From Hydrogenophaga sp. BPS33 (lineage in GTDB: Bacteria; Pseudomonadota; Gammaproteobacteria; Burkholderiales; Burkholderiaceae_C): a stretch of DNA of 64,000 nucleotides. Numbering within the stretch: the first letter of the stretch is position 1; each line of letters starts with the position of its first letter. The notes below the pieces were generated by a model that did no database searches, was not told the origin of the DNA, and saw only the letters and a program-made list of their open reading frames with translations. Positions 7,196 through 39,009 of this stretch are shown piece by piece. The stretch spans positions 5,084,001 to 5,148,000 of the forward strand of contig NZ_CP044549.1 in the NCBI RefSeq assembly GCF_009859475.1. The letters run 5' to 3'. Made by a program: the position numbers and the translations under genes.

Positions 7196-7220
7196 GGGCG
7201 TTCTGCGCAGCGGGGTAAAG
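7196..7220. repeat. Left part of REP-like palindrome split by IS110 insertion
   Basis: These 25 bases are identical to the left end of the intact 74-bp repeat at 27579-27652. Together with 8511-8559 they rebuild that repeat exactly in length. The 127 bp between the glycine-zipper gene and this repeat hold no feature I can identify. Confidence 0.85.
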
Positions 7221-7233
7221 ACACCGTTGTGCC

Positions 7234-7239
7234 TGTCAA
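7234..7239 (-). promoter_or_regulatory. -35 half of circle-junction promoter (TTGACA)
   Basis: TTGACA lies in the right end of the IS and includes the transposase stop codon. When the two element ends are joined through the CT core it sits exactly 17 bases from TATTGT in the left end. In the integrated state it has no partner. Confidence 0.75.
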
Positions 7240-8222
7240 GTGTTTGCATCGCAGAAACGAGTGGCATCGAAAGGTGTTCTGGATTTGAGCACGCCATAAA
7301 CGATGGCCAACAGCTTGTGCATACATGCCACGACGATCACTTTGCCCGGTTTGTTCTGAGCCTTCAAACGTTGCCAGAACGCGGCCACAGCCGGGTTGTG
7401 CCGGCCCGCGACCATGGCCGGGAAGTACAGCGCATGCTTGAGCTGACGGTGGCCCTGCGCGTGCGTGCCGCCCCGCTTGTTCAGCGATGTGCCGGACTGA
7501 CGGATCGCGGGCGACAGACTCGCGTAGGCAATCAACGCCTTGACGCTCTTGAACCGTTCGGGTCGGCCAATGTAGGCCAGCAACTGAGGGATGGTCCGAT
7601 CGCCCAGTCCGGGGATGCTGTGCAACAGCTGGGCACGTCCTCGCAGATGCGGATCGTCATCAATGGTTTGGCGGATTTGCGCCTTGACCTGGGCGATCGT
7701 CTTGTCCAGGGTCGCCAGCATCTCGTGCAGCGAGGCTTGCACAACGCCATGGGCCACCTCCAGGCGGTTGGCCTCGCTCTGGCGCATTTCCTGCAGGGCA
7801 TCCAGTCTGGCGACCAAGGCCTGCAGCGCACGCACACCAGGCGCTGGCGCCTCCCACAGCTCGGGCGAGGCCATGCGGCAGAACCGCGCCAGGCTCTTCG
7901 AATCCCCCTGGTCGGTCTTGTTGCCCGTGCCCTCGAGTTCGATGAACCGCTTGACCCTCAAGGGGTTGACCACCGAGACCCGCACACCCAGGTCGTGCAG
8001 GTGCAGTGCCAGCGGTTCGTGGTACGAGCCTGTGGCTTCCATGCAAACATGCAGCGCAGCGAGCTCCTGGCCTTGCGGCAGGTGGGTCTGCAGCCATTGA
8101 TGCAAGGCTGCGAAGCCCATGCCTGAATTGGCAAACACCTTGCAGCGGTACTTGCCTTCGTCGTTGAGCAAGGCCACATCGAGCTTGGCCTTGCTGACAT
8201 CCACGCCCAGCGATGAAGTCAT
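7236..8222 (-). CDS. IS110 family DEDD transposase (bridge-RNA-dependent recombinase)
   Basis: The protein is 328 residues. The N-terminal RuvC-like domain has D8 (GVDVSK), E62 (MEATGSYHEP) and the D104/D107 pair (TDQGDSKSLAR). The C-terminal Transposase_20 domain begins near IPGLGDR and has the conserved serine region SGTSLNKRGG (about 244-253). AGGAGAACGGC precedes the ATG. The frame is intact, so the element may be active. The stop codon TGA forms part of a TTGACA hexamer that is the -35 of the circle-junction promoter. Confidence 0.95.
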   Translation of the reverse strand: MTSSLGVDVSKAKLDVALLNDEGKYRCKVFANSGMGFAALHQWLQTHLPQGQELAALHVCMEATGSYHEPLALHLHDLGVRVSVVNPLRVKRFIELEGTGNKTDQGDSKSLARFCRMASPELWEAPAPGVRALQALVARLDALQEMRQSEANRLEVAHGVVQASLHEMLATLDKTIAQVKAQIRQTIDDDPHLRGRAQLLHSIPGLGDRTIPQLLAYIGRPERFKSVKALIAYASLSPAIRQSGTSLNKRGGTHAQGHRQLKHALYFPAMVAGRHNPAVAAFWQRLKAQNKPGKVIVVACMHKLLAIVYGVLKSRTPFDATRFCDANT

Positions 8223-8244
8223 GCCGTTCTCCTGTCAACAACAG

Positions 8245-8494
8245 CGCCATATCCGACTTGCGCATCCTGATATGCGAGGTCGCCGCTGGCCACAGACCGG
8301 CGGCGCCCCAAGACACCGTTCGAGCTACAGCGTCGAATCCGAGAGCGTGCCCCACTCTTTACCGCGGGAGGCAATTCCAAAGGAGGAGATCGGGGTCACA
8401 CTACGGGCTCTCTTCGGCGCGAGGAGAGCAGTTTGAACAATATCAGGAGGAGATCGGGGTCACACTACGGGCTCTCTTCGGCGCGAGGAGAGCA
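8245..8494 (-). ncRNA. Predicted bridge RNA of the IS110 element
   Basis: On the transposase strand the order is: 5' hairpin GCTCTC/GAGAGC (8429-8407); left target guide CTCCTCCT (8388-8381); right target guide GGTAAAG (8363-8357); left donor guide AACGGTGTCT (8320-8311); right donor guide ATATCAG (8273-8267). The target loop is closed by GTG(A)CCCC with GGGGCAC (8399-8392 with 8353-8347). The donor loop has a GC-rich hairpin (CGCCGC...GCGGCG) between its guides. Each guide matches its cognate DNA at the real insertion site or element ends. RNA ends are estimates. Confidence 0.85.
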
Positions 8495-8516
8495 GTTTGA
8501 ACAATATCAGGAGGAG
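8381..8516. repeat. 64-bp tandem duplication in the IS left end
   Basis: Two identical 64-bp units (8381-8444 and 8445-8508) are followed by an 8-base third start (8509-8516). Each unit begins AGGAGGAG on the plus strand, which is both the target flank and the left target guide of the bridge RNA. Each unit carries the GCTCTC/GAGAGC hairpin (8407-8429 and 8471-8493) and the -10 hexamer. Confidence 0.95.
8501..8506 (-). promoter_or_regulatory. -10 half of circle-junction promoter (TATTGT)
   Basis: TATTGT starts two bases inside the left end. Transcription from the joined promoter would start next to the 5' hairpin of the predicted bridge RNA. The duplication places a second copy at 8437-8442. 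Confidence 0.72.
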
Positions 8517-8559
8517 CCGCCCTCCCGGCGGCGGGGGACACCCGCGGAGCAGAGCGCCC
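8509..8559. repeat. Right part of REP-like palindrome split by IS110 insertion
   Basis: Matches 27603-27652 base for base, including the GCCGCC/GGCGGC inner hairpin and the terminal GCAGAGCGCCC arm that pairs with GGGCGTTCTGC at 7196-7206. Confidence 0.85.
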
Positions 8560-38055: not shown

Positions 38056-39009
38056 TCAAGCGCTGGGTGCATATCGCTGAGGCTCGAATGGTTTGCCAGA
38101 GCGCCAGACGGCAAAGGCGATACGCAGGAGCTTGCGAGCCAGTACAACGAGGGCTTCGGTGGTCTTCAGGCCGCGCTGGCGCAAAGCCTTGTACGTGGCT
38201 TCAAATGTCTTGGTGTGGCAGGCCGACATGGCGGCGAGGTACATCTGGCGTCGTAGAGCCGGTTGTCCGCGTTTTGAGAGCCTTCGGTGGCCTCGACTGC
38301 GGCCCGAATCACAGGCACGCGGGTCCAGCCCACTGTAGGCCACCAAGGCATCGGCGCTGGCAAAGTCCAGCTGGGCCAGCACGCTGGCCAGCAATGCACT
38401 GCTTTGCGCGCCCACGCCCACGATGCTTTGCAGTAAAGCCCGTTGCTCTGCCAAGCGGGCATCCTTTGCGAACAGTGCTGCGATGCGCGCATCCATGGCC
38501 TTGAGCAGCGTGGCGAAGGCCGCATCCAGGGCCCCTAGCTCGGCAGCGATGGCTGCATCACAGCCCTGTAGCGACTGGTGCAGCGCGGTGCGTTTGGTCA
38601 CTACCGTCCAACGCTGCGCGAGCAGGGTGTTGACCTGAGCGAGCGCGGGGCAGCAAGCCTGCCAGGGGTGCAGGTGCTCATGATGTTCAAGAAGGTAACG
38701 GGCGATCACATGGGCATCGAGCCGATCGGTCTTGGCCCGAGCGCCCAGGGCGCGGGCGTAGAAGAACACATCGCGGGCGTTGAGCACGAACACCTGCAGA
38801 CCCGCTGCGTGTGCCAGGGTGGCGAGCAGTTGGTGGTAGCGCCCGGTGGACTCCATGGCCACAAGGGTGTTGTCTGGTAGCTCACGCAGCCAGGCGCTGA
38901 TGGCGCCGACCTCGTTGGCGATGCTGCGGCATCCTGGTTGGGAGGCCGTGGCGACGACGAGTTCGGCCTTGGCCACATCTACCCCGATGAACACATGGAC
39001 TTCTTGCAT
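38056..39009 (-). CDS. IS110 family transposase, second type
   Basis: The protein is 317 residues from the ATG at 39009, which has AGGAGG just upstream; the frame to 39081 is too long. The catalytic pattern is D (IGVDVAKAELVVA), E (AMESTGRYHQLL) and D/D (KTDRLDAHVIARYL). The C-terminal SGRSRGHRRLSKRGQPALRR region is complete. The gene is intact. Confidence 0.93.
   Translation of the reverse strand: MQEVHVFIGVDVAKAELVVATASQPGCRSIANEVGAISAWLRELPDNTLVAMESTGRYHQLLATLAHAAGLQVFVLNARDVFFYARALGARAKTDRLDAHVIARYLLEHHEHLHPWQACCPALAQVNTLLAQRWTVVTKRTALHQSLQGCDAAIAAELGALDAAFATLLKAMDARIAALFAKDARLAEQRALLQSIVGVGAQSSALLASVLAQLDFASADALVAYSGLDPRACDSGRSRGHRRLSKRGQPALRRQMYLAAMSACHTKTFEATYKALRQRGLKTTEALVVLARKLLRIAFAVWRSGKPFEPQRYAPSA

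Follow-up and report, generated by a model that had tools for sequence, protein, structure and literature searches.

Bridge RNAs are already an established part of the IS110 group. Passages of Durrant et al. (PMC11208160) report bridge RNAs predicted in 85.7% of the IS110-group elements of ISfinder and an analysis of 5,511 target-RNA pairs, and they describe a promoter formed at the junction of IS110 circles. For the IS110-type ISEc21, the seekRNA is described as matching both strands of the target in passages of PMC11187229. Against this background the element studied here is very probably an IS621-like insertion sequence of the IS110 group equipped with a bridge RNA. It occupies 7219–8508 on the minus strand of the window, by which we mean the whole stretch of 64,000 nucleotides analysed. 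A first-pass annotation had come to the same identification, which is upheld by covariation of guides with targets and of RNA base pairs, by a promoter motif at the junction and by alignment with IS621 and ISCro4. The novelty that the annotation implied was overstated, as bridge RNAs had been predicted for thousands of IS110 elements (passages of Durrant et al. 2024, PMC11208160).

The element, its site and its guides

The features are as follows, all on the minus strand.
7197–7218: right part of the REP-like target repeat, beginning TTACCCCGC (sequence comparison)
7219–7228: right end AACGGTGTCT with the CT core (sequence)
7219–8444: canonical IS110-group element, one CT core counted in (1226 bp, length equal to the sister copies L002–L004)
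7234–7239: TTGACA, −35 box of the promoter predicted at the circle junction (closure at the inner left end puts TATTGT, 8437–8442, behind a spacer of 17 bases)
7236–8222: open frame of a DEDD transposase/recombinase, 328 aa (Pfam PF01548 and PF02371, IS621/ISCro4 alignment, alignment of 120 homologues)
8245–8434: predicted bridge RNA (covariance model R1, 193.4 bits)
8267–8273: right donor guide (RDG) ATATCAG, 7 nt, exact complement of CTGATAT at the left end
8311–8320: left donor guide (LDG) AACGGTGTCT, equal at 10/10 positions to the right end 7219–7228
8357–8363: right target guide (RTG) GGTAAAG, complement of CTTTACC right of the core (sequence)
8381–8388: left target guide (LTG) CTCCTCCT (sequence)
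8407–8429: 5′ hairpin of the bridge RNA, recurring at 8471–8493 (consensus fold, sequence)
8445–8508: additional tandem unit identical to the initial 64 bp of the element, repeating 8381–8444 with its left end, 5′ hairpin and LTG
8509–8558: left part of the REP-like target repeat, with CTCCTCCT at its end (sequence comparison)

The interval thus comprises a canonical element of 1226 bp and an extra unit of 64 bp. The canonical left non-coding end measures 222 bp, against 17 bp (7219–7235) past the stop codon at the right. The first-pass annotation had described a non-coding 5′ end of 286 bp; non-coding it is, but it consists of those 222 bp and an exact 64-bp tandem duplication that had gone unnoticed. 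A UDG-like gene and a gene for a glycine-zipper protein flank the insertion, and neither is broken.

The host genome (6.77 Mb, three contigs) carries four copies of the element, the window copy (L001) and the sisters L002, L003 and L004. No difference separates L002 from L003. Relative to this pair, the window copy has changes at positions 520, 774 and 786 and L004 at 667, 774 and 786; between the window copy and L004 two positions differ. All four are inserted at the same place in the same REP-like intergenic repeat, CTCCTC^CT^TTACC, between CTCCTCCT and TTACC. The uninterrupted 13-mer site CTCCTCCTTTACC is present at 12 further places in the genome, each within the REP-like repeat, and the reversed control pattern has no occurrence in the genome. 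The 72-bp repeat itself gives 21 genome matches at E 1e-5, three of which are left halves adjoining element copies. The closest named relatives of the transposase belong to Comamonadaceae and other betaproteobacteria; four relatives of 31–42% identity are found on viral contigs, and the search of the plasmid collection returned no match. Rfam at gathering score reports only a single feature in the window, a tRNA.

A second IS110-family transposase is encoded in the window (38068–38988, minus strand; 31% identity) and has seven copies in the genome. The four copies that were read lie inside another repeated extragenic sequence, with left flanks ending GGACGGCT or CCGGCT and right flanks beginning CCG.

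The four guides of the window copy, each matching its own partner and arranged in the IS621 order LTG-RTG-LDG-RDG, were already in the first-pass annotation and are confirmed by the sequence and by shuffling. Mononucleotide shuffling of the 222-bp region, repeated 20,000 times, produced the LTG, RTG, LDG and RDG words in 67, 173, 6 and 108 shuffles, respectively, and all four together in none. The annotated 5′ hairpin and closed target loop are likewise retained; the closure is not the single 7-bp stem proposed there, but CCCC/GGGG with further pairs outside.

A cycle of the IS621 kind can be proposed from these features. The bridge RNA would have guided the element to the CT core, within a dispersed REP-like repeat, at which it now sits. 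The recombinase would excise it as a circle, as established for IS621, and the joined right and left ends would create a promoter, whose motif is legible and from which the left-end RNA would presumably be produced. This RNA would pair with the donor junction through LDG and RDG and with the target through LTG and RTG, upon which the recombinase, if active, would exchange strands at CT. The 64-bp tandem duplication of the left end would have been gained after insertion.

Covariation of guides, targets and RNA pairs

It is conceivable that the guide matches merely reflect chance or base composition and that no guide RNA is encoded at the left end. With CTCCTCCT being of low complexity and the targets of close relatives alike, left matches come cheaply in the close group. 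The first-pass annotation had itself stated that internal loops failing to co-vary with their targets in homologues at other sites would speak against a bridge RNA. Across the relatives, the guides change along with the targets.

The comparison covered 75 loci with a transposase relative, whose element ends were located by motif, the left-end motifs having been picked by inspection of this first set. Each flank was matched to its own non-coding region and, after permutation of flanks, to those of other elements. The left test used 48 of the 75 loci and the right test 43; dropped loci had no recognisable end, repeated another row, or were doubtful (L028, L068, L089, L093 and L101). Among the 48 are seven pairs with near-identical non-coding regions and different flanks, the window copy and two sisters included.

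The mean best match of LTG to target was 8.13/9, against 6.49 ± 0.11 with permuted flanks (0/5000; 48 elements). The 37 distant elements reach 8.08 versus 6.48 (0/5000), with exact matches in 19. For the 11 close elements the values are 8.27 and 7.99, with 327 of 5000 permutations as good; LTG covariation is uninformative in this group because its left targets are nearly all CTCCTCCT. The right guide scored 6.40/8 versus 5.77 permuted over 43 elements (0/5000), 6.32/8 versus 5.84 over the 34 distant ones (0/5000) and 6.5/7 versus 5.44 in the close group (n = 8; 2/5000). Individual close relatives pair different right guides with different targets: GGTCAAG with CTTGACC (L022), AATAAAG with CTTTATT (L027) and GGTAAAAG with CTTTTACC (L030). 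The right guide of the Ramlibacter copies (L024–L026) is matched at only 6/8 positions.

A later set of 26 loci gave 7.47 versus 6.39 (0/5000) from 17 usable loci before cleaning. L102, L126, L127 and L129 were then removed as repeats of first-set elements, and L113 as a false match, since its left flank is itself right-end sequence and therefore matched its own LDG, not the LTG. The 12 elements absent from the first set score 7.33 versus 6.32 ± 0.26 (1/5000). The best left match is 6/9 or lower in 6 of the 48 first-set elements and in 5 of these 12. LDG and right end agree at 9.07/10 versus 8.22 permuted (0/5000; 43 elements). The RDG signal under an ungapped rule is weak, 6.0/8 versus 5.72 (1/5000; 48 elements), as would be expected because RDG pairing is discontiguous according to a passage of Durrant et al. 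(PMC11208160).

L022 and L031 share near-identical left ends and the LTG CTCCCCCT, but their left flanks differ (TTTCCCCCT and GCTCCTCCT, respectively). As read from these flanks, the pair is a natural example of a tolerated guide mismatch.

The consensus fold of nine close bridge regions comprises target and donor loops in addition to a 5′ hairpin. Outside the guides it has 43 pairs, in which 95.8% of cells are paired, compared with 89.0% in shuffled alignments and 35–49% in slid ones, the slid control being flattering to the fold as the structure came from the same alignment. Changes on both sides occur in 13 of the 43 pairs versus 7.2 in shuffled alignments (0/500; nine sequences). The first-pass annotation had proposed a covariance fold against homologues, and compensatory changes are present in the predicted fold of these nine. 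The single-sequence fold has only a modest advantage over shuffled sequences, 7 of 200 of which do as well (z −2.0). Permutation over divergent elements, RTG covariation within the close group and the compensatory base pairs together contradict the explanation by chance, which we regard as highly improbable.

Covariance model R1 was built from nine sequences, sister L002 included. Outside the training set it matches L083 (E 3e-10) and L052 (E 8e-9), and at E ≤ 0.01 about 19 of 64 sources, the window and L031 among them. Scores near 14.6 bits are meaningless, because the opposite strand of the element reaches that value. R1 had no match in the second IS110 element (L005). The upstream region of L028 holds what seems a truncated bridge RNA region, in which the 3′ part of the donor loop is kept and the remainder replaced.

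Joining of the right and left ends yields TTGACA-17-TATTGT, a sigma70-like promoter predicted from sequence only. The pattern TTG..-17-TA...T recurs in 39 of 43 elements, and three of the four misses are rows of the host genome from which the first TT had been sliced off.

The duplicated left end and residue 100

The duplicated unit runs from the left end through the last base of LTG and is flanked on both sides by CTCCTCCT, which thus occurs three times (8381–8388, 8445–8452 and 8509–8516), while the left end and 5′ hairpin occur twice. In the lowest-energy fold of the lengthened RNA both hairpins and the target loop form, and the donor region pairs partly elsewhere. The duplication is found in the window copy and in none of the three sisters. 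The host genome has five left-end matches, namely the four full copies and the one extra unit; solo 64-bp scars, reciprocal deletions and left-end-deleted copies were not seen there.

Among 101 upstream stretches, a tandem duplication of the left end was found only in the window copy and L101. These stretches combine the 75 earlier and 26 later loci; several end at contig edges, and at least 4 of the 26 repeat first-set elements. The L101 duplication was set aside, as it has an N at the join and is likely a contig join. L061, L083, L090, L094 and L120 contain exact repeats of 19–30 bp, below the tandem criterion. In L083 and L120 it is the left flank that is repeated, exactly over 29 and 19 bp, and the second copy, lying 38 or 48 bp farther upstream, is followed by GACCCC. 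A literature search on left-end tandem duplication in IS110 elements found no paper. The word "tandem" is absent from the available text of PMC11208160, PMC11208158 and PMC11187229, where passages with "duplicat" concern other matters.

That the duplicate is exact, and that the similar-looking duplication of L101 holds an N and resembles a contig join, could point to an assembly artefact. With a unit of 64 bp in a contig of 6.33 Mb and no N in the stretch, such an origin is quite improbable. The most likely route, and a probable one, is slippage or unequal exchange between identical 8-mers that are inherent in the system, namely the left half of the target and the LTG copying it; the duplication would then have arisen in one step.

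Alternatively, the recombinase may have made the duplication, if a circle, guided by its RNA, entered the LTG of the resident element and homologous recombination between the two bodies then removed one of them. The LTG DNA followed by TT (CTCCTCCTTT) does match the left 10 of the 13 target bases and has a CT core; insertion there predicts the very duplicated sequence observed. In L066, moreover, target and LDG meet at their CT dinucleotides, as though LDG DNA had served as an end. This route takes two events and would need mismatches to the right guide to be tolerated; nested elements were not seen, and L066 is a single case with a microhomology of 3 bp (CTT). The final sequence is identical for both routes. 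An origin by the recombinase is considered unlikely, and slippage or unequal exchange is preferred.

The join in L066 lies upstream of the transposase gene, some 60 bases from its start, where the target left half GAAGCCACCGACCT meets, at CT, the post-LDG sequence TTGGCCCGCC. In comparison with L058, this relative has lost its left end, its target loop and the greater part of its LDG and has kept the right end, in what looks like a deletion from core to core with the LDG as an end. With 3 bp of microhomology the join may be due to chance, yet it sits at the cutting point expected of a recombinase that mistook LDG DNA for the right end. A wider reading is that bridge-RNA elements process themselves via their own guide DNA, the window copy and L066 being two products caught. 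The LTG and LDG could be used as a pseudo-target and a pseudo-end because the former copies the target left half and the latter the right end. We consider this generalisation doubtful. If it were true, both left ends of the window copy would be equivalent, and an element excised from the inner one would leave behind a scar of 64 bp that ends in a rebuilt target. In principle the window element could excise from either left end, a prediction only.

A right-end-like sequence (ACAGTATCT or ACGGTATCT) precedes the left end in L089 (930–960) and in the left flank of L113. These loci are possibly tandem elements or insertions beside another copy.

The transposase frame is open, and its 328 aa fit the IS110-family range of about 300–460 aa. 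PF01548 (78.6 bits) and PF02371 (77.9 bits) are both over the cut-off, and the catalytic-type residues D8, E62, D104, D107 and S243 are all present. At E 0.001 the only solved chains matched are ISCro4 9t56 and IS621 8wt6, aligned over residues 5–323. Residue 100 is Gly in the window copy; in the best 120 of 616 homologue entries (E 1e-80) it is Arg in 119 and Ser in one. The counterpart is also Arg in IS621 and ISCro4, and the DNA of the three sisters encodes Arg100 (C at position 520), so that R100G is private to the window copy. The residue lies four positions ahead of the catalytic D104, which aligns with D102 of IS621, and the loop of that D102 contributes to the composite active site in passages of PMC11208158. 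A search of the available text of PMC11208158 for residues R98 to T101 gave no mention. R100G replaces a near-invariant Arg near the active site and may leave the window copy damaged, with reduced activity or none. The transposase had been annotated as intact, which stands for the reading frame and not for residue 100, where those 119 of 120 entries have Arg. Nor is the window copy as a whole simply complete and intact, given the 64-bp left-end duplication and the private R100G, both missing from the sisters.

Significance and comparison with known systems

The mechanism is already published; the novelty lies in an additional member and in a rearrangement that is small and unusual. Text searches of the literature, which are blind to sequence, found no paper evidently on the window element. 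Its guides can be read unaided in an IS621-like element, and its relatives, with right guides GGTCAAG, AATAAAG and GGTAAAAG, display natural re-targeting, which is of use in the search for programmable recombinases. The left-end duplication raises the possibility that RNA-guided insertion sequences are inherently unstable. R100G illustrates that an open frame is an insufficient criterion when a copy is picked for the bench.

IS1111 members usually have the RNA downstream and carry subterminal inverted repeats, according to passages of PMC11187229, whereas the RNA of the window element lies upstream. Against assignment to the IS1111 group, in which the subterminal inverted repeats measure 7–17 bp, speak the upstream RNA region and the 17 bp between the stop codon and the right end. 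ISEc21 shares the upstream non-coding region and the circle-junction promoter (passages of Siddiquee et al. 2024, PMC11187229). ISCro4 (9t56_A) has the closest solved recombinase by sequence (E 5e-80), the comparison covering the recombinase. A further close likeness is to IS621 of E. coli (passages of PMC11208160 and PMC11208158). Its recombinase aligns over residues 5–323 (E 3e-77), and it shares the CT core, a left-end RNA with 5′ hairpin, target loop and donor loop, the guide order, a sigma70-like junction promoter and insertion into REP repeats. Its target and its guides have other sequences; R100G and the doubling of the left end belong to the window copy.
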